Below, piece by piece: positions 16,461 to 45,517 of a stretch of 64,000 bases of DNA. The translations under genes were made by a program, and so were the position numbers. How positions within the stretch are numbered: position 1 is the stretch's first letter; each line of letters starts with the position of its first letter. The stretch is from Halobellus captivus (GTDB lineage Archaea > Halobacteriota > Halobacteria > Halobacteriales > Haloferacaceae), in NCBI RefSeq assembly GCF_003697845.1, contig NZ_RDQE01000007.1, positions 1 to 64,000 of the forward strand, read 5' to 3'. Below the pieces are notes generated by a model that searched no databases, was not told where the DNA came from, and saw nothing but the letters and a program-made list of their open reading frames with translations.

Positions 16461-19271
16461 ATGAGCGAGGCTGACTCGTCGCTTGATATTGACGCTCTCG
16501 TACAGGAGTACGTCTCCAACAAAGACTGGGAACAAGACAAAGCACACGTCAGGAACACATCCGAGGCCGTACAGACACTTGTCCGTGCGATCGTTGACAC
16601 CGGATCGATCGATGAGTATGCGATGCGAACGGTGTACAACCTGTGTCAGAACGACAATGCGCTGAGTCTGGAAATGAAGAAAGAACGGATCGACGATCTT
16701 GCGATTGACTCAGCCTCGAAGACAGAAATCAACGACTGCATTGAACAAGGGACAGGAATCGTCGGAAAGGGGACGTACTCGGTGCCGATAGAAGGCTACG
16801 AAGAGGAGACCTACGAATTTCTCAAAACGGTGATCGAATCCGATGATAGAGAAACAATCGACGAGGCAGTCGAAGAGTTCGCCGCATTGGATATTGGTGG
16901 AGTTCAAGCCGGTATCATTTCCCCTATTCTGTATTTTGTTCATCCAACAAAATATCCGATCAGTAACGATCGGTCTCGCACTGGTATGGAGAAATATTTC
17001 GGCTACGGGATGTCCAGACAGTTGCGTCAGTATATCGAAGACGCAAACAAATTCCGAACGGTGCGGGATTCCTACCCATTCAATGAGGATTTCCGTCACT
17101 TAGATAGCTTCTTCAATTGGATCGAACAGCAGGATCTTGCCGAACTAGACGAAGCCGAGCTAGAGGGAGACGAAGCCGAGCTAGAGGGTGAATCGGAAGC
17201 TGAACAGTCAGTTGATGACCTCGATATTGACGATGTTTCGTTTTACTGGGTGAACCAGAACCGCGAGGTCGAATTCAATGATGAATTTCTCCGCTCACAA
17301 GATAAGAAGTGGCAACGCGATCTGACGGTCCTCGAAACAGGCGACATCATCTTCCACTACACTAACCAGGCAGTTCGTGCGTGCTCCGTCGTCACGACCG
17401 AAGCACGACTCACCGAGATGGAAGGCGGCGAGTATTATCGCGTCGATGTCGATACAACCCGTCTTGACGAACCGCTCCCACTAGTGGAACTCCGAGAGGA
17501 ACTACAGAACTCCGAAGTACGACAAGAGCAAGAGCGGTATCCACTCGACAAGAACGGGAATGTTATTCAAGCGTATCTTTGCCACCTCACGCCCGAAGCG
17601 GGCCGATACCTGCTTGAGACAGCGGGTATCAACACGTCCAACTTGGTAGCATCACCATCCGAGGCGACGAACTACTTTTGGGCGACAGCCAATCCCTCTA
17701 TCTGGTCCGTCGACGATATTGCTGACGGGAGCGAGATCTTCTATAACGCCTACAACGAGAAGGGGAACAAGAAACGGCTGTTCGACGCATTCAGATCAGC
17801 TGCTCCCGGTGACCGTGTCCTGTTCTACGAGTCTACCCCGGTCAAAGCAATCGTGGCCGAAGGTACGGTAAGCGAGGTAATCCCGCCAGAGCGAGATCAT
17901 CAAGGGGGCACAACGACAGATGAACAACCGGAAACCACCGATAGTGACCAAGAGACGACATCTGATGTTGGTGTTCGAATCCAGTTTGATCGGCGTATTG
18001 AGAGCATCACGTGGGGCGATTTGAATGCGATTCCGGAACTCGAAGATGCGACCCCGATTACGAATGGGGCTCAGGGTAGCTTGTTCCCACTGACGAAAGA
18101 TGAGTACGAGACAATCCTCGCACTGGAAGAGCCTGCAGTAGATGGCGTTAGTCAAGAGGCATTGGACAGGTTCGAACAGAAACTCTCCCCACCGCAGATC
18201 GACGCGCAGATTCCAGAGACGCTCTACTTCGAAGACGACGCTCGACTGCAACGCGAAATCGAAGCGTCGCTTCGTTCTGGCAAACACATCATCTTCACCG
18301 GGCCGCCAGGAACCGGGAAAACCAAACTCGCCAAGGCGGTTTCTGACGGAGCAACGGCCCACGAGCAAGTCGATGGGTACCGATTCACGACAGCCACCTC
18401 AGAATGGACCGCCTTCGACACGATCGGTGGATACGTCCCGTCCACGAATGATGGTGGTCAGGAACTGTTGTTTGAGCCTCGCCTGTTCTTGAAATGCTTC
18501 CGGCAGGACCGAATCGTTAATGAGTGGCTCATTATCGACGAAATCAACCGGTCTGACATCGACAAAGCATTCGGTCAACTGTTCTCCGTTCTCTCCGGTG
18601 ACTCCACGGAACTTCCGTATGAACGCGAGCGCACCGTCGAACTGCTTTCTGTGAGTGACCACGCCAGTGATGGTGAGCTTGCTGAGATCATTGCGAACCC
18701 GGATGCGTTTCCCGTGACGCCGTCGTGGCGTCTCATCGCTACGATGAACACGTATGACAAAACCTCGCTGTATGAGATGTCCTACGCGTTTATGCGCCGC
18801 TTCAATTTCATCCACGTCGGTGTCCCGCCACTCACCACTGACGACGGCGCAGTCCGCACGTCACTCTTGGATCCAGATGCCGACGATAATTACTCGACCG
18901 CATGGCTCGCTGACAACCCCGGACTGCGCCCCGTGCTTGAGGCGTCGTACCCAGTAATTACTGTGCTGTGGCAGCGCATCAACAAACACCGCGTCATCGG
19001 ACCGTCCATCGTCTACGACATCATTCGGTACCTTGACTCCTTTGAGCACGCCGGCGGGACCCAGAGTGAAGCGCTCTCATCAGCCGTTGTCTCGCTCGTG
19101 TACCCGCAGCTCGAAGGGATGCGACCTGAGGATCAAAAACAACTGATTCGCTCGCTCACAGACACCGACGTACCCACCGAAAATGGCGACATCAATCTCG
19201 ACTTGGATGGAGAACGACTGAAGGAGAAAGCTGCTGACTTCTTCGGTATCAATTTCGACGATGACGCGTAG
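16461..19271 (+). CDS. mcrB: McrB-like AAA+ GTPase with two EVE-like domains (type IV restriction)
   Basis: 936 residues. The AAA+ motor has Walker A GPPGTGKTK (about 613-621), Walker B WLIIDEINRSD (about 688-699) and the McrB signature MNTYDKT (about 762-768), with an arginine-finger region MRRFNF. Upstream are two PUA-fold EVE-like domains: one opening DDVSFYWVNQN (about 258-390), the other TNYFWATANPS (about 404-550). EVE domains bind modified DNA bases. The first 235 residues form an unrecognised helical domain. An acidic linker holds a direct duplication of DEAELEG near residue 235. The gene overlaps mcrC by 11 bases. McrB translocates DNA and McrC cuts it, restricting modified foreign DNA. 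TATA-like TTTATG lies about 28 bases before ATG 16461, suggesting a leaderless mRNA. Confidence 0.9.
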   Translation: MSEADSSLDIDALVQEYVSNKDWEQDKAHVRNTSEAVQTLVRAIVDTGSIDEYAMRTVYNLCQNDNALSLEMKKERIDDLAIDSASKTEINDCIEQGTGIVGKGTYSVPIEGYEEETYEFLKTVIESDDRETIDEAVEEFAALDIGGVQAGIISPILYFVHPTKYPISNDRSRTGMEKYFGYGMSRQLRQYIEDANKFRTVRDSYPFNEDFRHLDSFFNWIEQQDLAELDEAELEGDEAELEGESEAEQSVDDLDIDDVSFYWVNQNREVEFNDEFLRSQDKKWQRDLTVLETGDIIFHYTNQAVRACSVVTTEARLTEMEGGEYYRVDVDTTRLDEPLPLVELREELQNSEVRQEQERYPLDKNGNVIQAYLCHLTPEAGRYLLETAGINTSNLVASPSEATNYFWATANPSIWSVDDIADGSEIFYNAYNEKGNKKRLFDAFRSAAPGDRVLFYESTPVKAIVAEGTVSEVIPPERDHQGGTTTDEQPETTDSDQETTSDVGVRIQFDRRIESITWGDLNAIPELEDATPITNGAQGSLFPLTKDEYETILALEEPAVDGVSQEALDRFEQKLSPPQIDAQIPETLYFEDDARLQREIEASLRSGKHIIFTGPPGTGKTKLAKAVSDGATAHEQVDGYRFTTATSEWTAFDTIGGYVPSTNDGGQELLFEPRLFLKCFRQDRIVNEWLIIDEINRSDIDKAFGQLFSVLSGDSTELPYERERTVELLSVSDHASDGELAEIIANPDAFPVTPSWRLIATMNTYDKTSLYEMSYAFMRRFNFIHVGVPPLTTDDGAVRTSLLDPDADDNYSTAWLADNPGLRPVLEASYPVITVLWQRINKHRVIGPSIVYDIIRYLDSFEHAGGTQSEALSSAVVSLVYPQLEGMRPEDQKQLIRSLTDTDVPTENGDINLDLDGERLKEKAADFFGINFDDDA

Positions 19272-29791: not shown

Positions 29792-30439
29792 ATGACCTCA
29801 CACGATCTCGTCGAGGTGTTTACCTCAACACGGCAGAATCTCCGCGAGGCGGAACTGGAAGATGACTTCTTTCTAGATCTTATCGGGTCCCGGTTATTGA
29901 TCGAACGCGTTGGTGAATCGAATAATCGAGGATGGTGGGACTCACGCGTCCTCTCAGAAACTGGCCGAGCAAGACTGGAAGAAGTGACTCCTAAAACCCG
30001 GCTGCAGTCTCAGATCAACCTTGCAATGAAGGTCGGTCGGAAAGCAGAATCGGATGTGCTCCCTGCGGATTCTATCTCGCTGTTTTCGTTCGGTCCAAAG
30101 CTCGAAGCACAACTCGGAGCTGCCATCGAAGACCTCAAAGCTTCCGATGAGCCGTTATTGACTGACCTTGAGGGTCTCTCTGTCCAGTCTCTAGAGACCG
30201 GTTGGGCGGACCCGATTATTGAACAGATGGCATCGAATATCTCCGTCTCTTCCATCTCACTCCAGGATCCAGGAAGTGGTTCTTATCGCATCAGCGAAGA
30301 GGGATACGACCAGTCCGAGATTGAGGCAGAGAAATGGCGACTGCTGGCCACTCTACTGCGTGGCTACGGCCAAAATACGGAACGGCTACACGTCCCGTAT
30401 TACCCACTCAACTCGGAACTTAAATCGGAAAGCGCGTGA
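29792..30439 (+). CDS. brxE: BrxE-like BREX protein
   Basis: 215 residues, first gene of the brx operon, 9 bases ahead of brxA. IERVGESNNRGWWDS, VLSETGRARLEEVTPKTRL and the following INLAMKVGRKAESDVLP, SISLFSFGP fit the pattern I know for BrxE (arginine-led RVGE, WW, Gly-rich segment, PKT/PRT, then a small helical block and a Leu/Phe strand). BrxE is known from type 6 BREX, where its role is undefined. Its presence here together with brxL is unusual. The assignment rests on motif pattern and operon position. Confidence 0.6.
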   Translation: MTSHDLVEVFTSTRQNLREAELEDDFFLDLIGSRLLIERVGESNNRGWWDSRVLSETGRARLEEVTPKTRLQSQINLAMKVGRKAESDVLPADSISLFSFGPKLEAQLGAAIEDLKASDEPLLTDLEGLSVQSLETGWADPIIEQMASNISVSSISLQDPGSGSYRISEEGYDQSEIEAEKWRLLATLLRGYGQNTERLHVPYYPLNSELKSESA

Positions 30440-30448
30440 GGAGTCCCT

Positions 30449-31261
30449 ATGAGCAACGAGCACCTGGAACCTGAAGACGAAGACAACGACGATCAAGCCA
30501 CGAGTCTTGACCCAAAAATCGCCCATCACAGCACCTACATCGACGAGACCAAGCGAATCCTACAGGCATACACCGACTGTGAATCGTACGATGAACTGGA
30601 GCGGATGGTAGTCGAAGACAACATCCTGAACAAAAACACCGACGAGTACCGAACGAACATTCTCCGCGAAGTAACCCGTAGACACATCCCGAGTAAAGAA
30701 GACTACACCGAGACCCCGCTAATGCGGGTACTTTCAGCTGACGTTCGGAGTGATGTAGCCGAATGGTGTCTCTACTACGAGTTCGCCCAAGACCCATTCA
30801 TCCGCCTCATCACGATCGAATTCCTCTATCCCGAGTTCCAGCGCGGCACTCTCTCTATCCAGGCCGAAGACATCGTCACGTTCATCAAATCCATCAAGGA
30901 CGACTATGCTGACCTTCGTGACCGGTCCGACTCGACGATCAATGAGGCAGCAACGAAGTATCTCACTTCACTCAGAAACTTTGGCCTGTTAGAAGGTAGA
31001 CAGCGAAAGGAATTCGCAGTCACCTACATTCCTGACGAAACGATCGCGTACGTCGTGTATCGTCTCTTCGACGACGAGGCTGCATCCGCATCGGACGTGA
31101 TCGAACACGATGACTGGAAACTATTCTTGATGGATGAATCCGAAGTCCAGCGCCGAATCCGCGATATTTCGCCACAGTACATTAACTATGAGAAACGCGG
31201 ATCGACAGAACGATTGAGAATGAAATACGAGACGGTAGACAAGTTGATCGATGCTTTCTGA
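30449..31261 (+). CDS. brxA: BrxA (DUF1819) BREX protein
   Basis: 270 residues. EWCLYYEFAQDPFIRLITIEFLYPEFQRG and TINEAATKYLTSLRNFGLLEG, then a C-terminal DWKLFLMDESEVQRRIRDIS, fit DUF1819/BrxA, a small DNA-binding BREX component. It overlaps brxB by 11 bases. Position between brxE-like and brxB supports the call. BREX blocks phage replication while methylating host DNA. Confidence 0.88.
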   Translation: MSNEHLEPEDEDNDDQATSLDPKIAHHSTYIDETKRILQAYTDCESYDELERMVVEDNILNKNTDEYRTNILREVTRRHIPSKEDYTETPLMRVLSADVRSDVAEWCLYYEFAQDPFIRLITIEFLYPEFQRGTLSIQAEDIVTFIKSIKDDYADLRDRSDSTINEAATKYLTSLRNFGLLEGRQRKEFAVTYIPDETIAYVVYRLFDDEAASASDVIEHDDWKLFLMDESEVQRRIRDISPQYINYEKRGSTERLRMKYETVDKLIDAF

Positions 31262-31820
31262 CTTTCAGACACGACTCGAAGAAGTCGAACGGCTCGTTCG
31301 AGAGGATAGAGAGGACGTCGGAAAGCGAGCGGGAGTTCCATTCATCGTGTTCACGTACGACCCCGCCGATGAAATCGAAGTCGATGAGGAAATTCGGAGT
31401 CTCATCGAGAAGCTGGAGTACCACGACCAAACGGTTGCCGCAATCGATATGCGTGACCTCGTCTTCAGCGTGCTTGAAGAGCGAGGCATCCTCGACAACG
31501 TAATCGACCTTGAACGGCGAGATCGTGAACAGCTGCTCAGCGGATTGAAATCCTCACTACTCGACGACGGCGAAATGGGACAACTGGCATCGGCTATTGC
31601 CACGCAGGCTGAAGACGCAGACACCGTTATCGTGTATCGAATGGGTATCCTGTACCCGTTCGCTAGTGCCTCGACTCTGATGGGGCAGTTGGAGACGAAC
31701 ACACCGGATGAGACCCCGATCGTGTTTTGCTATCCGGCGACCGTTGATGACAAGAGTTTAAGATTCCTCGATGAATCTGAGGGAACATATTACCGCGCGA
31801 AGGTGATCGGACATGAGTGA
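31251..31820 (+). CDS. brxB: BrxB (DUF1788) BREX protein
   Basis: 189 residues. FIVFTYDPADE, AIDMRDLVFSVLEERG, VIVYRMGILYPFASASTLM and TPIVFCYPATVDDKSLRFL are the conserved blocks of DUF1788/BrxB. Overlaps brxA by 11 bases and brxC by 8, so translation is coupled. Exact biochemical role is not known. Confidence 0.9.
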   Translation: MLSDFQTRLEEVERLVREDREDVGKRAGVPFIVFTYDPADEIEVDEEIRSLIEKLEYHDQTVAAIDMRDLVFSVLEERGILDNVIDLERRDREQLLSGLKSSLLDDGEMGQLASAIATQAEDADTVIVYRMGILYPFASASTLMGQLETNTPDETPIVFCYPATVDDKSLRFLDESEGTYYRAKVIGHE

Positions 31821-34800
31821 CACTACTTCTACCTACCAAATCAACGAGATCTTCTACCGGCCGATTAATCGGAAGATCGACCGGGTCGTCAAAGTCGATA
31901 ACGATGACCCGAGCGTCGTCAAGAAAGAACTCGAAGAGTACATCCTCACACCGCAACTCGAACGGCACTTCTCGGACGCCCTAGAGGCCGTCATCGACAC
32001 GGAACACGCCCAAACAGAGGACGTTGGGATGTGGGTTTCCGGGTTCTTCGGATCCGGCAAAAGCCACTTCATGAAGATCCTCGGTCACGTCCTGGAAAAC
32101 CGGGAGTTCGGGGATACCTATGCCGCGGAGATGTTCCGCGATCGGATCGAGGGCAACGAGATGCTCGACGGAGCCGTCTCATCGGTCACGAACAAATTCG
32201 ATTCCGAGGTGTTGATGTTCCAGATCGGCGCGAAGGCCGATGCATCTGGAAGCGAATCCATCACCGAGATCATTCACCGTGAATTCAACACGTCCCGCGG
32301 GTACGCTTCTATGCCCTGGGTCGCCCAGATGGAACAGGAACTCGAATCACGAGGCGTGTACGATGACTTCGTCGCTACCATCGAGTCAAACACCGGGAAA
32401 GACTGGACAGAGGCTCGGAAGGATGCGATGTTTGTGCGGTCGGATATGGAGACCGCGCTGGTAGAGGCGACGGATGAGTTTGACGACGAAGACGACGCAG
32501 CCCGTGCGATCGATGACGTTCAGAACAACGTTCTGATCAACGCTTCGACTCTCGCGGAAGACATCGTCGAGTACGTCGAACAGCAGGAACGCGAAACGGG
32601 GAACAACTCCCGATACTTCGTCTTCATCGACGAAATCTCCCAGTTCATCGGGGATGACGGACAGCTCCTCTTAGAACTCCAGAGTATCGTCGAGGAGTTC
32701 GGCCAGAAAGGCAAGGGGAAGGTGTACCTCGGAGTCACATCCCAAGAACAGCTCCAGCAGCTCATCCCCGGTGTGCTCGAAAAAGAGGCCGAAGAATCGA
32801 AAGTCATCGATCGATTCCCGCACCGGTTCGACCTCACGTCCGAAAACCTCGACAAGGTCGTCCGTGACCGTGTTCTCAGCAAGAAAGGCGACGCCAGGGA
32901 AGCCATCGGGAGTTTGTACGATCAGCACGAAGGCATCCTTTCCGCCAGGTACAAGCTCGATTCCGGTCAGAGTCTAAAACCGATCACGAGAGAGAACTTC
33001 ATCGATTGCTACCCGTTCCTTCCGTACCAGCTCGACATACTCCCGGAAATGTTCAAAGCGCTGGGTAAAGGCTCGGATGACCAACTCGCGGGCAGCGAGC
33101 GAACGCTCATCGATGTCACACAGAGTGTGCTGAAAGACGAGGCCCATCTCTACGACGACGAGCTCGGGGCACTCGTCACGCTCGATATGATCTTCGACGA
33201 GATCAGCAACGACATCCCGAGCAACGATGTCAAATCCATCCGGGAAGCCACACCAAAGAACGCCGATCCAGAAATCGCCAGCCGCGTTCTCAAGTCACTC
33301 TATCTACTCCAACAACTCCCCTGGATCCCGAACACCGCCGACAACATTGCAACCTCTCTCCAGACGGAGCTCGGCCCCACGAAGCAGTTAGAAAGCGACG
33401 TACACGACACGCTCGATGCACTCGTCGAAGCCGGGCTCGTCGGGCGAAGCGAAGAGGGATACCGGTTCCTTCGGGAGACCGAGCGCGAACTCGAAAACGA
33501 AATCAAAAGCATCGAGGTCGGCCCCGGCGACATCCGTCGCTCCTCGAAACGCTTCCTGAACGACATCCTCGACGAAACATCACGCGTCAACTACCAAGGG
33601 AAAACGTTCCAGCTGAATCTGAGCATCGACGGAGAAACCATCACGTCGAACGGACACGTCGATCTCAAAACCTATTCACCGATCCACCAGCGGTACGAAG
33701 ATCTCGACCCGGATGGGCTGAAGACACAGAGTTTCAGTGAAGACGATACGCTGTACTGGATTGCCGACGACGAGAAGCAACACAGCATCTACGAGAAGCT
33801 GAAATCGATCTACCAGATCAACACCGTCGTCAAGTCAAAACGAGGGAACGAACTCAGCCAAGAGGAACAGGAAGCCCTCGGGCAGAAACAGGAAGATCTC
33901 CAACGTCTCCGGAACGAGGTCGAACGCGAGTTCAAACGGAGCTTCCAGCGCGGCACACTCATCTACAACGGAGACACCGAGGAATTCGACACGACAAGCA
34001 CTTCACTTAGCTCGCTCGTGTCGCGGAAGACGAACAACGCCATCCCGAAAGTCTTCTCCAGCTTCAAACACGGATCAGCGACCGTCAAAGACCGCCACAT
34101 TGAGAAGATATTCGGTGATCTCCAAGGCTCGTCGAACCCATCCGTGTTCTCGGACCTCGGCGTCGTCCAGGACGGCGATCTCATCGCAGAGGCCCGCATC
34201 GCTTCCGAAGTCGAAGATGAAATCCAGCGACGCGAGAAGGCCGGAGAGTCCCGCTCTGGAAGCGATCTGATCGACCACTTTGCCGAACCGCCGTACGGGT
34301 GGAGCCGGGAAGTCGTTCGCCTCGCCGCTGCCGTGCTCTTTAGAAACGGATCCGTCATTCCGACGCACAAGGAGCGAACGTACGAGACATATTCTGAGGA
34401 CGGAGCACAGGAGCTGTTCACGCAGGTCACGAAGTTCAAGTCCACGTCGTTCGACGAGCGGGAGACCGTCGATGTCGAAACGCGAACTGATGCGAAGCAG
34501 CTCCTTGACCGGCTCTTCGACCGGAAGGTCAAATCGACCGACCAGGCCGTCGACGAAGGAATTAGAGAGGCAGCCAACGAGTGGGTTTCAACCACGAGCA
34601 CACTCCTCTCGCAACTCCAGCGGGTCGACTTCCCGCTGGCAGACGACATAGAGCAATTCCAGACACGATTAAACAACCTGCTGCAACAGCCCACGTCGGC
34701 CAAGCGCATCAAACAGTTCGTCGATTTCGAAGACGAACTCGAAGACCTCACGAAAACCGCGAAGGATGTGGCCGAATTCTGCGGTGAGACCGGCGGCCAG

Positions 34801-35457
34801 AACCGGCTGGAGACCTACGAAACTATCCAGCGATTCATCACGACTGAGTGGGAGTCTCTCGTCGACGAGGCCGATGACCACGCTGGGCTCGTCGACATCA
34901 GCGACGAAGCGCGTGAAGCTGCTCGACGTGTTGCTGATACGTTAGACACGGAAGGTGTCATCAGCCAGTGGAACAATGTCAAGACTGACTACCGAACTGC
35001 CGCCGAAGCCTTCACGACCACGTACGAATCCCTGTACGAGAAACGCCACGAGACATACACAGAGTCCATCGAAACTGTCCGGGCATATGCTGGGTCCGAC
35101 ATCGAAGAAACCGATCTCAACGCCGCTCTATCCGATCTGACGGAACGGCAGGGAGAAGGAACAGTAGACCTGGACATTACCGATGAAGAGCACATCAACC
35201 CGACGCCGTCACTCCCACGACTCATTGAGCATATCCAAACCGTCGATGCGTACGAGGACGCTGCGAAAACCCAGATCGACGACTTAGAAGACGATGAAGA
35301 AGACGGCACGGTTCGAGAGAGTGTAGACATCGACTCCATCTTCGGATCTATCGTCGTCACTGATCCGGACGACATCGACCAACCAATCTCCGAGCTCCGG
35401 GCAGAAGTCGAGGAACTACTCGATCAGGATGACGACGTAGAGATCCGCTTCCGATAG
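31813..35457 (+). CDS. brxC: BrxC P-loop ATPase of BREX
   Basis: 1214 residues, within the usual BrxC size. Walker A GFFGSGKSH (about 76-84) and Walker B YFVFIDEIS (about 268-276) are followed by KVIDRFPHRFDLTSENLDKVV and the PITRENFIDCYPFLPYQLDILPEMF block typical of BrxC. The C-terminal half (about 650-1214) is largely helical with acidic coiled-coil stretches. BrxC is an AAA+-like ATPase required for BREX defence and modification. Coupled to brxB by an 8-base overlap; followed by a 186-base gap before pglX. Confidence 0.93.
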   Translation: MSDTTSTYQINEIFYRPINRKIDRVVKVDNDDPSVVKKELEEYILTPQLERHFSDALEAVIDTEHAQTEDVGMWVSGFFGSGKSHFMKILGHVLENREFGDTYAAEMFRDRIEGNEMLDGAVSSVTNKFDSEVLMFQIGAKADASGSESITEIIHREFNTSRGYASMPWVAQMEQELESRGVYDDFVATIESNTGKDWTEARKDAMFVRSDMETALVEATDEFDDEDDAARAIDDVQNNVLINASTLAEDIVEYVEQQERETGNNSRYFVFIDEISQFIGDDGQLLLELQSIVEEFGQKGKGKVYLGVTSQEQLQQLIPGVLEKEAEESKVIDRFPHRFDLTSENLDKVVRDRVLSKKGDAREAIGSLYDQHEGILSARYKLDSGQSLKPITRENFIDCYPFLPYQLDILPEMFKALGKGSDDQLAGSERTLIDVTQSVLKDEAHLYDDELGALVTLDMIFDEISNDIPSNDVKSIREATPKNADPEIASRVLKSLYLLQQLPWIPNTADNIATSLQTELGPTKQLESDVHDTLDALVEAGLVGRSEEGYRFLRETERELENEIKSIEVGPGDIRRSSKRFLNDILDETSRVNYQGKTFQLNLSIDGETITSNGHVDLKTYSPIHQRYEDLDPDGLKTQSFSEDDTLYWIADDEKQHSIYEKLKSIYQINTVVKSKRGNELSQEEQEALGQKQEDLQRLRNEVEREFKRSFQRGTLIYNGDTEEFDTTSTSLSSLVSRKTNNAIPKVFSSFKHGSATVKDRHIEKIFGDLQGSSNPSVFSDLGVVQDGDLIAEARIASEVEDEIQRREKAGESRSGSDLIDHFAEPPYGWSREVVRLAAAVLFRNGSVIPTHKERTYETYSEDGAQELFTQVTKFKSTSFDERETVDVETRTDAKQLLDRLFDRKVKSTDQAVDEGIREAANEWVSTTSTLLSQLQRVDFPLADDIEQFQTRLNNLLQQPTSAKRIKQFVDFEDELEDLTKTAKDVAEFCGETGGQNRLETYETIQRFITTEWESLVDEADDHAGLVDISDEAREAARRVADTLDTEGVISQWNNVKTDYRTAAEAFTTTYESLYEKRHETYTESIETVRAYAGSDIEETDLNAALSDLTERQGEGTVDLDITDEEHINPTPSLPRLIEHIQTVDAYEDAAKTQIDDLEDDEEDGTVRESVDIDSIFGSIVVTDPDDIDQPISELRAEVEELLDQDDDVEIRFR

Positions 35458-35643: not shown

Positions 35644-38600
35644 ATGTCCACAACCCACGGTCAACCCGGTCTCTCGTCGGATCAACGATCAACAATCCGA
35701 AGCACGATCCTCAGTACACGCCACGCACTTGAAGACGAACTTCGCCGCCAACTCGAAAAATACGGCATCTACGAAGACAAGAGACTCCCGCTGGAGAACC
35801 TGACACACCTCTCCGTTGAAGAGATCGAAACTCGACGAACACTGAATGCAGCAATCGAACGCGAACTCGAATCCACCGAAGGCGACCTAAAGCGGTCAAT
35901 CACCAACTACGTCCGGGAAGCGACGAAGACCTACCTCAATCGATTTGTTGCGCTGAAAACCATCGAGGTTCGCGGTATCATTGAGGAAACCATCACCGAG
36001 CGACCGGAGTACGGCAACCGGTCGTACATACACCACACGGTCGCCGAAATCGCAGGCGAGCTAACCAACGCACCTGACGATGGCTTCGGTACCGCACTCG
36101 AACTTGCGTACCAAGAAATCGGCGCAGAGATTCGGATGATTTTCGAGGAATCCGAACACACCGTCATCGACCTCGATCCACAGGTGCGTGAAGAAGTTCT
36201 CGACAAACTGGATGCCATCGAAAACGAGGCTTGGGAGAGTGACGAGGCTTTAGGTTGGGTCTACCAATACTTCGGAGAAGAAGAACGCGAGGAGATCGAC
36301 GAGCGTGTCGATGAAGAGAACTACAAGATTGCAGGAACAGACATCGCCACGAAGACCCAGCTGTTCACACCGCGCTATATCGTTGAGTGGATGGTCGACA
36401 ATTCGCTTGGACGGCTGTGGCTCGAAATGCAAGGCGAGAGAACTAGTATTAACGATGAGGACAAGTGCTTCTATCTTGCTCCGCTTGAAGACTCGCTGAC
36501 TGACCGCGAGACGAAATCGGTCAAAGAGATCACCGTACTTGACCCGGCTTGCGGAAGTGGTCATATGCTGTTCTATGCTTTCGACGTTCTCTACCAGATG
36601 TATCTAGAAGAGAGTGAAATCGCGGAGAAGTACATCCCACGTGAGATTCTCCGGAACAATCTCTATGGTGTCGATATTGATTCGGGAGCTGCGCAAATCG
36701 CTGCCCTATCCCTCTATCTAAAGGCAAAAGATCAATCGCCGGATGTCGAGATTCCACAGTTGAACATCGTTTCAGCAGATGCAGTGTTAATTAACGGCGA
36801 ACGGAAAAAAGAGATACTTGAACGCTCGGGGTCGGAATTGGAGAGGGAAATCTTAGAGCAGATCTGGAATAGCTTCGGTGACATCCGTGAGTTAGGCAGT
36901 TTGGTTCAGGTCGAAGACCGCATTGATGAGGTTCTCGACGAATACCGAGAAGAATTCGAGGCAACCGGCCAAGCACAATTCACGAGCGGTGGTGGGCTGA
37001 CCTCTCAATCGACATTCGTTGCAGGCGGTGAGGAAGAGTCTTGGGACGAAATCAAGTCCCGGCTAATGCAGAGCGTACAGAACCTCGCTAGTGAAGCGCT
37101 CGAACATAATGACCCAATTGAGGAGATGTTTGCTGCCGAGGTTGGGAAAACAGTAGAACTACTCGATGTTCTGATGGGAGAATACGATACGGTCGTCAGC
37201 AATCCGCCGTATCTACAGAGTAAAAAGATGGGCGAGACGCTCAAGGACTACATCAGAGATCATTACGTGGGGAAATATGATGTCTATGGTGCTTTCATCG
37301 AGCGCTGTCTTTCCTTCTCGTCCGAGGATGGCCACGTTAGTATGGTTACTCCAGAGAATTTTATGTTCCTCTACTACTTCCGTGGACTGCGAAAGAAGCT
37401 TCTAAATGAGAGTTACTTCATAGAGGCTGCTCACCTTTCCAGATACGGTTTCGAACAACAGAAAGACGCATACACCATTCCCTTCGTGCTTAGAGGATCA
37501 GTTCCCTCAGAAGGAGAGTCGTCTCGGTTCTATAGGATGACACATGAGCAAGAGCACTACAAGAACTACGAGCGTAAAATTGCAGGCTTGCGGGAGATCG
37601 CTGAATCCCTTCGCTCTGGAGAGGAACATAACGACGTGTATGTCTTCTCTCAAAGCAGAATCGATGATATTGGTAGGCGGCCATTCCTGTATTGGTTCGG
37701 CGAAGAGACGCTGAGTTTGTTTTCTGAATATCCAAGTGTCGATGATATTGGCGAAGTGAAACAAGGGCTCTCTACCGGCGACGATGATCAATTCGTTCGG
37801 AAGTGGTGGGAGGTGCCAATAGAAGAGATTGGTGATCGATACAAGCGGTTCCAGAAGAGTGGAACAGACTCCGAGTACTACGATTACGCTGAAGACTACG
37901 TAGACTGGGGAGACTCAGGGAAAGATCTGCGTGATGCGGGAGCGAACCTTCGAAACGAAGACTTCTATTTTGAGGAAGGTGTCACCTTCAGAGCATTCGG
38001 GAATCATTTCGTCGGGCGCAAACAACCAGCAGATTCTATCTTCTCGCACAAGTCCCACGCAGTCTTCTCAGATGAACTCTCAGATAAACTTCTCTTAGCA
38101 AATCTCAATTCGACTCTGCACAGGTTCATTGGGAACGGACTCAATCCTGGCTTGAGCTTCGAGGTAGGCGACGCAAAGCGATTCCCGGTGAAAACGGATT
38201 ACGACTATCAGTCAGACATAGAGGAGCTGGTTTCTACTGGCATCCAAGAGCGAGAAGAGCTCTCTCAATTGACAGAGACTAGCGCAGACTTCGACGGTGA
38301 GGAACTCATAACGCTGCTTGAATCGAGTTCAACCGATCTACAGTATGCTGAAGAGGTTAGCAAGGCTCGCATCCTTACTGTCCATGGGATTTCTGACACT
38401 CTCCTCTTCGATGAATATGAGATCTCCTCTGGGACGCAAGAGCAGATGTACGCCAATCTCCCAAAGAACACGTCTGAATACCCTGTGGACCGTAATGTTC
38501 ACGTTGAGTATCCAGAGTTCTTGAACCAGTATCTGGAAGTAGTTGACCTGGAAGACAAAAAGCTTGATTCAGCAATCGAGACTCTCCGATCATTGGACGA

Positions 38601-39363
38601 TGTAACGCTCCGCGAAGCAGCAGAAGCAACTGAGCTCTCCCCGTTAACTGTGGCTCAACTTCGATACGACTACGACCTCTATACTGACGATGAGCAATCA
38701 AGGGCCGCAGGTCGAGTGGTTTCACTAATCGTGGGGTCGTTGTTTGGCCGTTGGGAATCTGGCACCGATATTCCTACACTCGATGATGAGATACTCGCTT
38801 TTGACCACTCGACTACCTCAGTCACAAACCTGTTCTCGAAGGCTCTCAACGAACTATTTCAGGATTCAGCGCAGGCAGAACGCACACTTGAATCCGCTTT
38901 GGGAGATCACCCCGTTAATTGGCTTCGAGAGAATTTCTTCCGGTATCATCATGTCGATGAGTACAAACCGCGAGGTGAGCGGAGCCCTATCTACTGGCAA
39001 CTCGAAAGTCCCAATGGCGGATTTAGTTGCTTCATCTATTACCACGATATAGACGCGAACACCCTTGCGAAGCTCCGTGGCCAGTATCTCGATCCACGGA
39101 TTGACGTACTCGAAAACGAGCTCGAAACACTTAACGCTCAAACTAGCGGTGAGAATCCGGATAAAGAGCTTCTGAAAAGAAAGGAAGATGTCCAAAATGA
39201 GCTTGATGACATCAGAGAATTCCGCAATATCATCGACGAGATGATTGACGATGGCGTTACCGTCGATGTGGAAGATGGCATTTGGGAGAACATCAAGAAA
39301 TGGGATCAGTACGAAGTTCTCGAAACTGGACTGCCCAAGCTGAAATCCAGCTACACAAGATAA
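35644..39363 (+). CDS. pglX: PglX/BrxX adenine-specific DNA methyltransferase
   Basis: 1239 residues. SAM-binding motif I ITVLDPACGSGHML (about 297-310) and catalytic NPPY in VVSNPPYLQSK (about 517-527) identify an N6-adenine methyltransferase. The N-terminal 230 residues form the helical domain typical of BREX-1 PglX. The target-recognition and C-terminal regions (from about residue 590) include a charged coiled coil near the end (LLKRKEDVQNELDDIREF). PglX marks host DNA so that BREX spares it. The 3' two thirds looks more AT-rich than the 5' end and brxC. It is complete, with no frame break, so not phase-off here. Confidence 0.93.
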   Translation: MSTTHGQPGLSSDQRSTIRSTILSTRHALEDELRRQLEKYGIYEDKRLPLENLTHLSVEEIETRRTLNAAIERELESTEGDLKRSITNYVREATKTYLNRFVALKTIEVRGIIEETITERPEYGNRSYIHHTVAEIAGELTNAPDDGFGTALELAYQEIGAEIRMIFEESEHTVIDLDPQVREEVLDKLDAIENEAWESDEALGWVYQYFGEEEREEIDERVDEENYKIAGTDIATKTQLFTPRYIVEWMVDNSLGRLWLEMQGERTSINDEDKCFYLAPLEDSLTDRETKSVKEITVLDPACGSGHMLFYAFDVLYQMYLEESEIAEKYIPREILRNNLYGVDIDSGAAQIAALSLYLKAKDQSPDVEIPQLNIVSADAVLINGERKKEILERSGSELEREILEQIWNSFGDIRELGSLVQVEDRIDEVLDEYREEFEATGQAQFTSGGGLTSQSTFVAGGEEESWDEIKSRLMQSVQNLASEALEHNDPIEEMFAAEVGKTVELLDVLMGEYDTVVSNPPYLQSKKMGETLKDYIRDHYVGKYDVYGAFIERCLSFSSEDGHVSMVTPENFMFLYYFRGLRKKLLNESYFIEAAHLSRYGFEQQKDAYTIPFVLRGSVPSEGESSRFYRMTHEQEHYKNYERKIAGLREIAESLRSGEEHNDVYVFSQSRIDDIGRRPFLYWFGEETLSLFSEYPSVDDIGEVKQGLSTGDDDQFVRKWWEVPIEEIGDRYKRFQKSGTDSEYYDYAEDYVDWGDSGKDLRDAGANLRNEDFYFEEGVTFRAFGNHFVGRKQPADSIFSHKSHAVFSDELSDKLLLANLNSTLHRFIGNGLNPGLSFEVGDAKRFPVKTDYDYQSDIEELVSTGIQEREELSQLTETSADFDGEELITLLESSSTDLQYAEEVSKARILTVHGISDTLLFDEYEISSGTQEQMYANLPKNTSEYPVDRNVHVEYPEFLNQYLEVVDLEDKKLDSAIETLRSLDDVTLREAAEATELSPLTVAQLRYDYDLYTDDEQSRAAGRVVSLIVGSLFGRWESGTDIPTLDDEILAFDHSTTSVTNLFSKALNELFQDSAQAERTLESALGDHPVNWLRENFFRYHHVDEYKPRGERSPIYWQLESPNGGFSCFIYYHDIDANTLAKLRGQYLDPRIDVLENELETLNAQTSGENPDKELLKRKEDVQNELDDIREFRNIIDEMIDDGVTVDVEDGIWENIKKWDQYEVLETGLPKLKSSYTR

Positions 39364-39397: not shown

Positions 39398-39916
39398 ATG
39401 ACGGAATTATTCTTGGCCCCAGCATCCAGAAGGGATGACGCGTTTGAAATCTTTCACAGAACGGTCCTCAATGGCATAGAACGAGCAACCTATTCCAATT
39501 ACTCAGACAGCAACTGGGGAGACTATGCCAGCATATGGGGGCTCACGTCGTCTTTTGAATCCTCGTGGCAGAACGTACATAGGGGAGACTGGATTTTATT
39601 CTATACCGATTCGGACCAATATGAGTATGCTGCGAAAGTAGCTGAAAAAGAACATAACCCGCCCCTCGGTGATGCAATTCGCACTGATCTATTAAATGTG
39701 AAAGGTAACGGCGACCGGGATTGGGACTTCCTACTGGTATTAGAAAACCCAGTTTCAGTATCGATCTCTGGCCATAAATTGGCTGACCTACTCGATTATG
39801 GCAACTACTATCCGGTCAGGTTCATTCGGGTAACGGAAAGCCGAATGGAGCATCTTAGGGAAGAATACAACTCTGTGAACGAATTCATTCAGAAGATAAG
39901 AACGGACACCACATAG
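39398..39916 (+). CDS. EVE/PUA-like domain protein inside the BREX operon
   Basis: 172 residues. TELFLAPASRR at the N-terminus, SIWGLTSSFESSWQNVHRGDWILFYTDSDQYEYAAKVAEKE and the later NYYPVRFIRVTE follow the EVE-type PUA fold: short opening strand, tryptophan-containing segment, then a GDWILFY strand. EVE domains read modified bases. The gene sits 34 bases after pglX and 85 bases before pglZ, where standard BREX has none. It might recognise modified phage DNA. The AT-rich composition and position suggest a cargo insertion. The fold call is by pattern only. Confidence 0.6.
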   Translation: MTELFLAPASRRDDAFEIFHRTVLNGIERATYSNYSDSNWGDYASIWGLTSSFESSWQNVHRGDWILFYTDSDQYEYAAKVAEKEHNPPLGDAIRTDLLNVKGNGDRDWDFLLVLENPVSVSISGHKLADLLDYGNYYPVRFIRVTESRMEHLREEYNSVNEFIQKIRTDTT

Positions 39917-40001
39917 CCCAGTCTGAGGTTCTACCAAGTCGATCATAACCGTCAAACCATCCCCGAAACACCAAACAGCCCCCAATTGAAAGGAGAATAC
40001 A

Positions 40002-42428
40002 ATGGGAGATCTCGCGGATAGCATTATCACGGAACTCCGGCAGAAGTTCGATCGCCACCCAGTCTGGGTGTGGTACGACGCTCAGGAGAAATACAAGGGT
40101 GTCCTCAACGAGGTCGAAGCTGATCTCGATGATGTCACACTCGCTCGCTACGATGGCAGTTACTTCGAACTGAAGCGCCGACTCCGTGATGAGGATCCGA
40201 ACTACGAGCAGAACTGGCTGTTCTACATCCCTGAGTCCCGGAACGACGCCGAGTGGTTCCGCGATGTTCACGCGCTCGGCCGACAGTACCGCGTCGGCCA
40301 GGACATCGACGACACTCCGGTGACGCAGTTCCTCGTCGAACACGACGAAGAGATTCCGGACGCGTACGAGGACTGGGGACAGAACCGCGAATACCAGCGT
40401 CTGGCGTTCTTTTGTGTGCTCTTCGAGACTGTAGGCCCAGCAATCGACGAGTGGGTTCGTGACTATCTTTCTGACCCCGAGGACTACCGCGAAGACATCG
40501 AAGATAACGCGATGGCTGATGCCTGGGATGCACAGCTCCGCGAGGAGTACGGCATTAATGCCGGACTGGACCCAAAGGAACTGGCGACCCAACTCCTCTT
40601 CGGAGAGGTGACGAGTCGTGCGCCGACGGCACAGTACGACAACCTCGCTGCAGACGATGCTCAAGCTGCGGCGGAGTTTTGCGACGACTGGCAACAGTAC
40701 ACTCCTGCCGATTTCACTCGATATTCACGGGAGATCGAAGCCGACTACGACCTCACAGAGGCCGTGATCGAATCCGATCAAACCCGATGGAACGCTACTG
40801 CGTTCAAAGGTATCGACACTGGCCTGATTCGGCTCGTGATGGATCGACTTGCTGAGGGAACGTATGCTGATCTTCCGGAGATCGCGGCGGAACTCAATCG
40901 GACAGTCACGAAACGCCGGGACAGCTTCTGGAGCAACGAGGATCTCGTTGATTGGTCGGTGCCTGCTTTGGCGGTTGAGACGCTTCGTCAGATCGGTACC
41001 GTCGATGTCGACGACGCGAAAGCGATGGGTTCGAGAGAGCTTGCGGGACAGTACACGACCGATGACGGCTGGTGGCAGGTTGATGCAGCCTATCGACGCT
41101 ACATCAACGCGACCCAGCAGGCCACATTCCCGTACCCAAAGGAAGCCACGGTGAAACGTCAGGTCACTAATCACTACATGGCCTTCCTTCAGGGTGTCAA
41201 CCGGCCTCTGGCAGAGATTTTGAGCGACGATCCGACACTCGGAACGCCACAGACCTCGTTCTACGAGGAATTCGCTGAGGTCGAAAACGGAACGGCGATC
41301 ATTATCTGTGACGGGCTCCGCTACGAACTTGCTGAAGCCATCCGCGAAAATCTTGGACGAAGAACCGACTTCGAACAGGATCTCTCCGCAGTGAGTGCTG
41401 CACTTCCGTCGATCACCGAGGTTGGGATGGCTGCACACCTACTGGGTGAACTCGGACTTTCACTCGACGACGACGAACTCGTCGTCACCAGCGGCGGTGA
41501 GCAAATGGCTGGAAAAGCGGACCGTGTTGAACGACTCAGTGCTGCGGGCTTCGAGGTCGTCGATATGGACGAGGTTGGCGACATTTCGCTGGAAGAGCTG
41601 ACCGAGTCCGACCCCGTTCCGCGTGTCGTCTACTCCGGCACGATAGACAAACTCGGCGAGAGTCTTGACGACGATGCTGCATTCAGCCAGGTTGCGTCTC
41701 ACGTCGACGATGTCGAACGGACTGTCCAGCGTCTCAAACAGGCCGGCTATACTCGCTTCGTGATCACCAGCGATCACGGGTTCCTGTATACGGACCGGCT
41801 GAATGACGATCACAAAGTCGAGGCTCCTGACCTTGCTCCGGTCGTCAAACGCCGGTTCGCTGCTGCCGACCGTGAAACGCCACTCGTCGATACTGATGAG
41901 TTCGTCGAGATCGATCACGAGGCACTGTCGAAACTCGGCATTGATGGCCCCGAGATCAAGTTGCTATTTCCCCGTAGTGTCGCGTGCTTCAAGTCACGAG
42001 GTGGGAATATGCGCTACTTCCACGGTGGGATTTCGCTTCAAGAACTCCTAGTCCCGTGTCTCACTGTGACCACGGGCGAAATCGAAGAGAGCGCGTCGAT
42101 CAGCTACGATGTCTCGATCCCCGATCCGATTACAAACTCTATACTCACCGTGGAGATTGAGGCTAAGAGTGGGCAAGTCGCCTTCGACCCTGCACCAACA
42201 TTAGAGGTTCGTGCAACCATCAATGATGAGCCGGTCGCAGATCCTGTTACAATGGAGATCTCCCCTGGCGACAATAGCACCCGTGTTCGGCTCAAGCAGG
42301 GAGCCATCTCGGGTGAAGATACGGTCCAATTCGAAGTCGTCGATACTGACACCAGAGAGACGATCACGAGACAGACTGTGAGCCTAGATTTACTATTCGG
42401 AGATGACGATATGGGATTTGACGTGTGA
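40002..42428 (+). CDS. pglZ: PglZ/BrxZ alkaline phosphatase-superfamily protein
   Basis: 808 residues. GTAIIICDGLRYELAEAI (about 433-450) carries the metal-binding Asp, and FVITSDHGFLYTDR (about 586-599) the D-H-G pair of the alkaline phosphatase-like PglZ core. The N-terminal 400 residues are acidic and helical, the C-terminal 110 are beta-rich. PglZ is a core BREX protein with reported nuclease/phosphodiesterase-type activity in some systems. A clear Shine-Dalgarno GGAG at 39992-39995 precedes ATG 40002, unlike the coupled or leaderless starts around it, so it may be translated independently. Confidence 0.92.
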   Translation: MGDLADSIITELRQKFDRHPVWVWYDAQEKYKGVLNEVEADLDDVTLARYDGSYFELKRRLRDEDPNYEQNWLFYIPESRNDAEWFRDVHALGRQYRVGQDIDDTPVTQFLVEHDEEIPDAYEDWGQNREYQRLAFFCVLFETVGPAIDEWVRDYLSDPEDYREDIEDNAMADAWDAQLREEYGINAGLDPKELATQLLFGEVTSRAPTAQYDNLAADDAQAAAEFCDDWQQYTPADFTRYSREIEADYDLTEAVIESDQTRWNATAFKGIDTGLIRLVMDRLAEGTYADLPEIAAELNRTVTKRRDSFWSNEDLVDWSVPALAVETLRQIGTVDVDDAKAMGSRELAGQYTTDDGWWQVDAAYRRYINATQQATFPYPKEATVKRQVTNHYMAFLQGVNRPLAEILSDDPTLGTPQTSFYEEFAEVENGTAIIICDGLRYELAEAIRENLGRRTDFEQDLSAVSAALPSITEVGMAAHLLGELGLSLDDDELVVTSGGEQMAGKADRVERLSAAGFEVVDMDEVGDISLEELTESDPVPRVVYSGTIDKLGESLDDDAAFSQVASHVDDVERTVQRLKQAGYTRFVITSDHGFLYTDRLNDDHKVEAPDLAPVVKRRFAAADRETPLVDTDEFVEIDHEALSKLGIDGPEIKLLFPRSVACFKSRGGNMRYFHGGISLQELLVPCLTVTTGEIEESASISYDVSIPDPITNSILTVEIEAKSGQVAFDPAPTLEVRATINDEPVADPVTMEISPGDNSTRVRLKQGAISGEDTVQFEVVDTDTRETITRQTVSLDLLFGDDDMGFDV

Positions 42429-42549: not shown

Positions 42550-44577
42550 ATGACGACTGAGGACGTAGATCGGAAAGCCCTGGATGTCTTCTCCGGGCGC
42601 GTCGTCCGGAAAGACCTTGTTCAGGACATCAAATCCGGGGTAAACGTCCCTACCTACGTTCTCGAATATCTGATTGGACAGTACTGTGCGACTGATGACG
42701 AGGAATCTCTGGAAGAGGGCCTCGAAAAGGTCAAAGAGATTCTGTCAAAGCACTACGTTCGTCCTGACGAGGCCGAATTCGTCAAGAGCGAGGTTCGAGA
42801 GCGGGGACGCTATCGCGTCATTGACAAGGTCACCGTCAGGCTCGATGAACAACAGGACGCCTACATCGGTTCGTTTGTCAACCTCGGTTTGAGCGATGTC
42901 GAGATCAACGAACATCTCGTCAGCAAGCATCCAAAGCTCCTCGGTGGTGGCGTCTGGGCTATCATCGACTTGGAATATCTCCCTGATAATGCGAACAGTC
43001 CAAAGAGCCTCTTCGGCATCGACTCGTTCAAACCCATACAGGTATCGAATCTTGACCTTGACCAACTGAAAGATCGACGTAACGATTTCACGCGCGATGA
43101 ATGGATGGACCTTCTCCTTCAGACCGTCGGCTACGACCCCTCTTCGTTTAGCGACCGCGAGAAACTCCTCTTCTTAGCTCGATGTATCCCGCTCGTCGAG
43201 TCGAATTACAACTACGTCGAATTGGGGCCACGTGGGACGGGAAAGAGCTATCTCTACCGTGAAATCAGTCCCCACTCGATCCTCATCTCCGGCGGTAAAA
43301 CCACCGTAGCAAAGCTCTTCTTGAACCTGAATACAGGACGAATCGGCCTCGTCGGTCGCTGGGATGTCGTTGCATTCGACGAGGTCGGGGGACTCCAGTT
43401 CAGCGATTCGGAAGCCGTCCAGATGCTCAAAGACTACATGGAGTCCGGAAGCTTCTCTCGTGGGACTGAAGAGCTCACCGCCCAAGCCTCGATGGTCTAC
43501 GTCGGAAACATTGACCTCGACGTTGAAGGCGTTCTCAAGAGTTCACACCTCTTTGAACCGTTCCCCGAGGATATGCAGGATCTCGCGCTCATCGACCGAT
43601 TCCACTACTACCTTCCAGGGTGGGAAGTCCCGAAGATGCGGTCCGAGTTCTTTGGCGACCAGTTTGGATTCATCGTCGACTACTTCGCTGAATTCGTCCG
43701 CGAACTTCGCAAGGAGTCGTACGGTGACGCGATTAACGAGGAGTTCGCGTTTGGTGACCATCTGAACCAACGAGACGAAAAGGCAGTACGAAAGACAGTC
43801 TCTGGTCTACTCAAGCTACTTCACCCACATGGCCACTACACGAAAGAAGAGCTCCGAGAGTATCTCGAATTCGCTATGGAAGGTCGTCGTCGAGTCAAGG
43901 AGCAATTGAAGCGGATTGGCGGTATGGAATATCGCGCCGTCGAATTCTCCTACCTTGACCTGGAGACGAAAGAGGAGATCTATGTCTCAGTACCCGAAGA
44001 AGCAGACGAGTCACTCATTCCCCCAGGAACACAGCAGGCAGGAACGGTCTACACAATAGGTGAGAGCGAAGGACGCCACGCACCCTTCCGAATCGAGACT
44101 CAGACACTCCCCGGGTCGGGCAAGACGAACATTTCGGGCACGCCCGGAAAGCGGATGAAAGAGTCGTTCGAAACCGCCTGTGACTATCTCCAGGCGAATA
44201 TGCGGGAACTCAGTCGTGAAGAGACCCTAGATGAATACGACATCAATGTCCAGGTTCTCAACCCCTCTGATGCAAATGAGGGTGGTGAAACGAGCGTCGG
44301 GCTACTCGTAGGTATTGTTTCGGGAATTCTTGACCGGCCAGTTCGGCCACAAACGGTTGTACTGGGATCGATGAGTTTGATGGGCGAATTAGTCTCCGTG
44401 AGTTCGTTGATCGATAAACTCCAGCTGTCTGCGGATTCTGGAGCCAAAACGGTGCTCCTTCCAGCGAAGAACAAAGAAGACTTGCCGAAAATCCCCGACG
44501 AACTCCTCGACCAGCTCCAACTCGTGTTCTACACTAATCCCCTTGATGCGGCTAGTAAGGCGATTGAACTAGAGTGA
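42550..44577 (+). CDS. brxL: BrxL, AAA+ Lon-like BREX protein
   Basis: 675 residues. Walker A ELGPRGTGKSYL (about 224-235), followed by the BrxL-typical HSILISGGKTTVAKLF, and Walker B WDVVAFDEVGGL (about 271-282). The C-terminal Lon-like domain holds EGGETSVGLLVG with a serine near 582 and LIDKLQLSADSGAKTVLLP with a lysine near 622, at the positions of the Lon Ser-Lys dyad. BrxL is the terminal gene of type 1 BREX; published BrxL proteins form DNA-translocating rings. Last plus-strand gene of the operon. It has its own upstream palindrome and TATA-like bases. Confidence 0.93.
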   Translation: MTTEDVDRKALDVFSGRVVRKDLVQDIKSGVNVPTYVLEYLIGQYCATDDEESLEEGLEKVKEILSKHYVRPDEAEFVKSEVRERGRYRVIDKVTVRLDEQQDAYIGSFVNLGLSDVEINEHLVSKHPKLLGGGVWAIIDLEYLPDNANSPKSLFGIDSFKPIQVSNLDLDQLKDRRNDFTRDEWMDLLLQTVGYDPSSFSDREKLLFLARCIPLVESNYNYVELGPRGTGKSYLYREISPHSILISGGKTTVAKLFLNLNTGRIGLVGRWDVVAFDEVGGLQFSDSEAVQMLKDYMESGSFSRGTEELTAQASMVYVGNIDLDVEGVLKSSHLFEPFPEDMQDLALIDRFHYYLPGWEVPKMRSEFFGDQFGFIVDYFAEFVRELRKESYGDAINEEFAFGDHLNQRDEKAVRKTVSGLLKLLHPHGHYTKEELREYLEFAMEGRRRVKEQLKRIGGMEYRAVEFSYLDLETKEEIYVSVPEEADESLIPPGTQQAGTVYTIGESEGRHAPFRIETQTLPGSGKTNISGTPGKRMKESFETACDYLQANMRELSREETLDEYDINVQVLNPSDANEGGETSVGLLVGIVSGILDRPVRPQTVVLGSMSLMGELVSVSSLIDKLQLSADSGAKTVLLPAKNKEDLPKIPDELLDQLQLVFYTNPLDAASKAIELE

Positions 44578-44824: not shown

Positions 44825-44936
44825 ATCTCCGATATTGACCCCGGTTCACTAATGAGTGCTGGGACGGCATCCATTAGTCGAACGTCCAAAGGCTTATGCC
44901 ATTAGCGGTATGACTATTGGATGGAAGCTCAGCCAT

Positions 44937-44984
44937 CGGGCGTTAATCAGGAAACGCCCGGGTGTGGTAGCACCCAGGCTGGGT
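44937..44984 (+). promoter_or_regulatory. Three consecutive inverted repeats in the leader of the RAMP operon
   Basis: IR1: CGGGCGTT (44937-44944) and AACGCCCG (44953-44960), perfect 8 bp. IR2: GGGTG (44960-44964) and CACCC (44971-44975). IR3: ACCCAG (44972-44977) and CTGGGT (44979-44984). IR2 and IR3 overlap and are mutually exclusive as RNA hairpins. The next gene starts at 45008. Could be operator sites, an mRNA structure or a small structured RNA. A frame is open across it from 44921, but it shows no acidic halophile character. Confidence 0.6.
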
Positions 44985-45007
44985 TCAGAATAACCAATCT
45001 CGAACCC

Positions 45008-45517
45008 ATGACGAAATCAACACCACCAAATCAAGAAAGTATCGACAGCGAGCTTATTGAAGACATAAACAAACTGAAACTGTCAGATTTGGCGGAAGGG
45101 GCCGTTATCTGTCAAGTCTGTGACTCTCGAATTTGGGAAGGCGGACGCATTACTGTGTCCGCTTTTCGATCGAAGTCTGATCCGAAATTTAAGATTGAGG
45201 ATGTGTTTTGTCGGGGGCATGGAGATGAGTATAATCGCTCGTGGGATCGATCGCTCCGGGAGCTGGTTGTCCAAGGGCGGGTCGGTACGGTGTCAGACGC
45301 GGCGACGCAGTCGGCGTGGCTGGTTTTACTGGAACCTGAATTGGTTGTCTTCAGTCCGCGGAACACGCTAGAGGCATACACGCTGGATGATGCTGATCCG
45401 GACTCGGGTGCCGATGGTGAGGATGCCCGTGTTGATGTGACTCATTCGGGTGTGGTGACGGAGTCATCTGGCCGTGAGCAGCCGTCGTCGTGGTGTGACA
45501 GTGGTGGTTCGCAATGA
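45008..45517 (+). CDS. Small zinc-finger protein, first gene of the RAMP (HRAMP/type IV-like) operon
   Basis: 169 residues from ATG 45008; an in-frame ATG at 44921 would place the leader hairpins inside the gene and is rejected. C35-x2-C38 in ICQVCDS and C68-x2-H71 in FCRGHGD make a likely four-ligand zinc site. The C-terminal 50 residues are acidic and low in complexity. A small zinc-finger protein ahead of a Cas7-like gene recalls Csf1 of type IV CRISPR systems, the large-subunit equivalent, but the sequence alone does not prove homology. It overlaps the Cas7-like gene by 4 bases. Confidence 0.6.
   Translation: MTKSTPPNQESIDSELIEDINKLKLSDLAEGAVICQVCDSRIWEGGRITVSAFRSKSDPKFKIEDVFCRGHGDEYNRSWDRSLRELVVQGRVGTVSDAATQSAWLVLLEPELVVFSPRNTLEAYTLDDADPDSGADGEDARVDVTHSGVVTESSGREQPSSWCDSGGSQ

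Follow-up and report, generated by a model that had tools for sequence, protein, structure and literature searches.

The window analysed here, a stretch of 64,000 nucleotides from Halobellus captivus, carries an operon with the gene order brxE-brxA-brxB-brxC-pglX-EVEx-pglZ-brxL (Table 1). PADLOC and Pfam identify the gene set of a type 1 BREX system in order, with brxE as an extra gene upstream. The 20.5 kb from 29398 to 49914, operon included, show only 6 mismatches to Haloferacaceae archaeon XH8. XH8 is classed in another genus than the window's genome, and the near-identity of the defence island that the two share points to a recent transfer. A 198-aa gene that follows brxL (44921-45517) has no Pfam match, and relatives of it are found after brxL in several other BREX loci.

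Table 1. Features of the BREX locus and of related cassettes. Positions refer to the window unless a locus is named.
Feature	Position	Strand	Description
McrB-like GTPase	16461..19271	+	One Pfam EVE domain (residues 404-554) plus a weak second
brxE family	29792..30439	+	First gene of the operon; NCBIfam NF033447 BrxE, E 3e-32
brxA	30449..31261	+	Pfam BrxA, E 3.6e-16; PADLOC, E 2e-20
brxB	31251..31820	+	Pfam BrxB, E 5e-17; PADLOC, E 1e-25
brxC	31813..35457	+	PADLOC BrxC, E 4e-180
pglX	35644..39363	+	N6-adenine methyltransferase; PADLOC PglX, E 2e-150; Pfam Eco57I, E 2e-27; NPPY at residue 520
Divergent segment	37300..40250	+	Approximate bounds of swapped cassette: C-terminal half of pglX, EVEx slot, start of pglZ
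EVEx (reader gene)	39398..39916	+	172 aa; predicted YTH/EVE-like; standalone; no nuclease domain
CGAAA, BRE-like	39964..39968	+	38 bp before the pglZ ATG
pglZ	40002..42428	+	Pfam PglZ, E 9e-21; PADLOC, E 1e-61
brxL	42550..44577	+	PADLOC BrxL, E 2e-287
Methyltransferase-EVEx-TBP cassettes without BREX	L096:4194-8233 and L077:7393-13143		EVEx and TBP genes 2 bp apart in both

The open reading frame that we call EVEx begins with an ATG behind the pglX stop codon and ends before the pglZ ATG. The initial annotation had placed a gene at this position, and the gene is real: it has conserved orthologues and is under purifying selection. Its product is conserved in five other records at 54-100% identity, namely XH8 (100%), Halosegnis rubeus (84%), the genomes G062 (67%) and G340 (55%), and a plasmid of Halobaculum roseum (54%). 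A comparison of the window with the 84% copy gives a dN of 0.089 and a dS of 0.85, a ratio of about 0.1. The protein is acidic (pI 4.8), as is usual in haloarchaea. No relatives of EVEx were found in the viral contigs searched; a match in a phage collection was the AAA ATPase of an Archaeoglobus provirus (24%).

Pfam, PADLOC and NCBIfam assign EVEx to no family above their cut-offs. The Pfam EVE model (PF01878) does not match it and matches only 9 of 21 homologues, weakly (best E 0.0013), and NCBIfam PRK00809 reaches E 0.0075, far below the model cut-off. Against the Protein Data Bank, a profile of the 21 members matched the N-terminal domain of Thermococcus gammatolerans (Tg) McrB (6p0f/6p0g, E 2.6e-8; 6ut5, E 6.3e-7), whereas the EVE protein 1wmm was matched weakly (E 0.055); the EVEx sequence alone, used with no family profile, reached only E 0.24 to the Tg McrB-type reader. 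In hhalign, the family aligned to the Tg McrB sequence at 96.5%, and the five standalone members by themselves at 92.6%; two unrelated control sequences gave 0.1% and 0.5%, and the two EVE regions of the McrB encoded in the window 16% and 7%. Residues 5-143 of the profile are significantly similar to the Tg McrB domain, and "WG" and "GDxxLFY" blocks are common to both. Among the 21 homologues, W47, G48, D64 and Y69 are invariant and Y75 and W109 nearly so. The Tg McrB domain adopts a YTH fold and binds DNA containing N6-methyladenine (6mA) (PMC7680126, PMC12707154). The description of EVEx as "EVE-like" in the initial annotation holds at the level of the superfamily, but "YTH-like" is the closer term; its broader claim, that a domain of the modified-base-reader type lies inside BREX, is supported by the profile evidence. 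AlphaFold models of EVEx had low confidence (pLDDT 46 and 40 for inputs of two sequences and one sequence), and a Foldseek search with the first of these poor models returned no significant match, as is to be expected from such a model. The case for a YTH/EVE-type reader, while supported, is thus one of a fold predicted from sequence.

Stretches homologous to EVEx occur in 54 of 196 haloarchaeal relatives (E<=0.001), mainly within larger open reading frames. The domain forms the N-terminus of McrB-like AAA proteins of about 510-540 aa and also of HNH proteins of about 330-350 aa (L006, L010, L012, L015 and L032). One fusion of each kind was compared with NCBIfam; the former resembled McrB (E 2.7e-14) and the latter the phosphorothioate-DNA restriction enzyme HNH family (E 1.5e-22), with neither score reaching the curated cut-off. 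EVEx differs from such proteins in its lack of a partner domain. The Tg McrB domain is part of a protein whose GTPase motor drives a nuclease, whereas EVEx is a separate 172-aa protein encoded behind pglX. The EVE-HNH endonuclease VcaM4I likewise has a reader of the EVE/PUA superfamily, but it reads 5mC/5hmC and cuts (PMC7897488), and EVEx is unfused. The combination of reader and nuclease in one system that characterises type IV restriction enzymes is not found in EVEx. A parallel in architecture is offered by the standalone archaeal EVE proteins already known beside type I restriction-modification and DUF499 systems (PMC7641849), which are also nuclease-free readers near methyltransferase-based defence; those, however, are classical EVE domains, and EVEx has no Pfam EVE match.

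We surveyed the slot between pglX and pglZ in 22 loci whose PglZ proteins are 76-100% identical, with XH8 and both G398 copies counted. The slot was empty in seven, where the two genes are separated by 9-10 bp. It held EVEx in four, a homologue of the TATA-binding protein (TBP) in six (L034, L037, L038, L044, L048 and L049; the three tested by Pfam gave E 4e-18 to 7e-44), a conserved 353-aa protein in two, an SMC-like ATPase in two and an unassigned 128-aa ORF in one. Two more distant plasmid BREX loci also have TBP-like genes in the slot, and four loci with more distant PglZ proteins (about 48%) have larger cargo, with GmrSD-type genes in two (L050, L052). No extra nuclease gene was found in the slot in the window, XH8, L045 or L040. 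Haloarchaeal BREX operons thus carry interchangeable accessory genes, unexpectedly including TBP homologues. That standard BREX has no gene here, as first annotated, is true of the minimal system; among close relatives, 15 of 22 loci have a gene in the slot. Because 18 of the 22 related loci lack EVEx, BREX does not need it, and EVEx is not a core part of the system. TBP homologues occur in the BREX operons of many haloarchaea, mostly in this slot; L097:7078-7626 and L098:8301-8885 (minus strand) are examples outside the 22 loci. The 353-aa protein belongs to no Pfam family and is found in L036, L039 and, in part, L097:8184-8852.

Such a hotspot of unrelated contents, vacant in seven of the 22 loci, raises the question of whether EVEx is merely passive cargo, uncoupled from BREX, in a slot permissive for recombination. 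We consider this quite unlikely: EVEx is on the same strand as its neighbours, has operon-like spacing and is under purifying selection, and it recurs behind methyltransferases in unlike systems. The occupied slots have a further feature in common. At -38 or -37 before pglZ, all 13 occupied-slot loci that were scanned have CGAAA or a one-base variant (CAAAA in L034). This BRE-like element may be part of a promoter that replaces the tight coupling of pglX and pglZ.

A natural comparison is provided by the genome G010, which belongs to the same genus. Outside one segment, its BREX island is about 95% identical to that of the window (about 90-99% per 250 bp). Across that segment (37.3-40.25 kb), nucleotide identity falls from 95-98% to 61-91%, and the G010 slot is empty. 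Compared with this sister island, EVEx and the specificity half of pglX have thus changed jointly. In a pglX tree, the EVEx loci share a single clade of six rows (100/99) with an SMC-like locus, a 353-aa locus and an empty one, whereas they are scattered in the pglZ tree. We conclude that EVEx moves together with the C-terminal part of pglX. It is not restricted to a single target motif, because a near-identical PglX specificity half (L035, 87%) is accompanied by an SMC-like gene instead of EVEx and the EVEx locus L040 has a more divergent half (76%). The idea that EVEx strictly accompanies a single PglX specificity was accordingly rejected, the same half being found with other slot contents. 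Adjacency alone could account for the linkage of EVEx to pglX.

The same genome bears on a second association. The initial annotation had pointed to two EVE domains on an McrB encoded 20 kb away as a sign that both systems target phages with modified DNA. One of these domains is clear (residues 404-554, Pfam EVE, E 1.5e-12); the other (about residues 250-400) matches VcaM4I only weakly (E 0.07). The argument itself fails, because EVEx occurs without this McrB in G062 and G340, whereas in G010 a BREX system with an empty slot has a 100% identical McrB next to it. A dependence of EVEx on the window's McrB was rejected on the same grounds. These facts also weigh on the notion that EVEx is a specificity subunit split off from a type IV (McrBC-like) enzyme whose genes lie elsewhere, its location in BREX being incidental. 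The occurrence of the same domain at McrB N-termini would agree with this, as would G126, in which some 460 bp separate a standalone relative (34%) from the gene of a 1596-aa AAA protein (AAA_5) on the same strand. However, the window's McrB owns an EVE domain and is missing from the two EVEx carriers named above, and we judge this notion very improbable. The standalone relative and the 1596-aa AAA_5 protein (L055:4378-10206, minus strand) are themselves a possible split reader-motor pair.

EVEx is also found where there is no BREX. In Halobaculum roseum, a methyltransferase gene (N6_Mtase/Eco57I, 980 aa) is followed after 33 bp by EVEx and, after another 2 bp, by a TBP gene. In G340, the order is a PLDc-SNF2 helicase, an Eco57I methyltransferase, an opposite-strand ORF, EVEx and, again 2 bp on, a TBP gene; here the methyltransferase is about 1.1 kb from EVEx. 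In the window, XH8, Halosegnis and G062, the upstream methyltransferase is PglX, at a distance of some tens of bp. An N6-adenine methyltransferase gene therefore lies upstream of EVEx in six of six close members. Because EVEx follows such a gene in H. roseum and G340 without BREX, its steady partner is the N6-adenine methyltransferase, not BREX or McrB.

The close EVEx-TBP pairs raise the possibility that the two proteins act jointly in transcription, sensing the state of methylation and regulating the defence operon. Controller proteins regulate restriction-modification systems in comparable fashion. The 2-bp spacing behind methyltransferases in H. roseum and G340, the TBP homologues in the slots of six of 22 BREX loci and of the two distant plasmid loci, and the BRE-like element before pglZ in the 13 scanned loci are all consistent with such a role. 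Nevertheless, the EVEx-bearing BREX loci have no TBP gene in the slot, and the BRE-like element is also present with the SMC-like or 353-aa gene and may do nothing but replace the lost coupling; we think a regulator of this kind improbable. A wider form of the idea, which we also hold to be unlikely though slightly less so, is that EVEx and TBP-family proteins make up a mobile archaeal methylation-state module on N6-adenine methyltransferases (BREX PglX, type IIG-like and helicase-methyltransferase systems), in which the reader would sense 6mA and the TBP homologue would translate this into promoter choice or DNA marking. If true, this module would constitute an epigenetic control layer of BREX that has so far not been described.

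We favour, tentatively and with somewhat less than even confidence, a simpler explanation: that EVEx is a standalone YTH/EVE-type modification reader and an optional accessory of defence systems based on N6-adenine methyltransferases, here BREX PglX, whose target by default is the mark of the neighbouring enzyme. An aromatic pocket formed by W47 and nearby conserved aromatic residues would take up a flipped base that carries a modification, N6-methyladenine being the most likely one, and EVEx would thereby tie the PglX/BREX machinery to DNA according to its methylation state. The default target would be the mark of the adjacent methyltransferase, that is, self or hemimethylated sites, since PglX, in which the NPPY motif is present, fills the cell with 6mA. 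That EVEx reads 6mA is the simplest supposition because it is nuclease-free, is encoded behind a 6mA-writing enzyme and has a 6mA reader as its closest relative. The data establish the gene, its conservation and selection, its homology to reader domains of McrB and HNH proteins and to the Tg McrB domain, the slot, and the association with methyltransferases; we infer the ligand, the partner contact, the outcome and the fold. Points against this explanation are the low confidence of the fold models, the absence of EVEx from 18 of the 22 loci, its imperfect linkage to one PglX specificity half and its acidity, although the last is common among haloarchaeal proteins. In the main variant of this explanation, EVEx would read 6mA or another modification on viral DNA.

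That variant borders on the model of the initial annotation, in which EVEx senses modified bases of viruses and directs BREX effectors to DNA that would escape BREX by itself. Homologous domains are found on type IV restriction enzymes, and modified DNA exists among haloarchaeal viruses: about 30% of G in HVTV-1 is dPreQ1 (PMC6884629), and phiCh1 encodes an adenine methyltransferase (PMC13076061). There is also a precedent. BrxU of Escherichia fergusonii pEFER is, like EVEx, a modification-related gene inside a type 1 BREX operon; it is modification-dependent, and its complementation of BREX against modified phages has been tested experimentally (PMC8565348). The GmrSD-type genes in the same slot of more distant haloarchaeal BREX loci point in the same direction. 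BrxU, however, is a GmrSD nuclease encoded between brxC and pglX, whereas EVEx is non-catalytic and encoded between pglX and pglZ; because it has no nuclease domain, EVEx cannot act alone as BrxU does. Further, EVEx is present where BREX is absent, the coincidence with McrB breaks down across genomes and, if EVEx reads 6mA, the PglX-marked host genome would also be a target. An extension of BREX to modified viral DNA is thus possible but rather unlikely. A reader of 6mA written by PglX is at least as likely as such a sensor, because the nearest solved relative reads 6mA, which is PglX's own mark.

BREX restricts without a classical nuclease, and its way of reading methylation state is an open question. 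A candidate 6mA reader directly behind pglX, with natural empty-site controls on near-identical islands, makes it testable whether BREX can gain a dedicated reader and whether self or viral marks are read. Neither a YTH-like reader in BREX nor an EVEx-TBP-methyltransferase cassette was found in the openly available main texts that were searched. The main text of Bell, Wolf and Koonin (2020), which describes the standalone EVE proteins, does not mention BREX, PglX or PglZ (PMC7641849), and a recent BREX survey lists nuclease accessories, with the words TBP, TATA and YTH absent from its main text (PMC12839542).

The gap between brxC and pglX is also variable among the related loci. In L040 it holds a NucS-like nuclease (6067-7065; Pfam NucS_C, E 5e-8), and L047 has a similar ORF there; L046 has a nuclease of the Mrr type and L034 a second TBP-like ORF.
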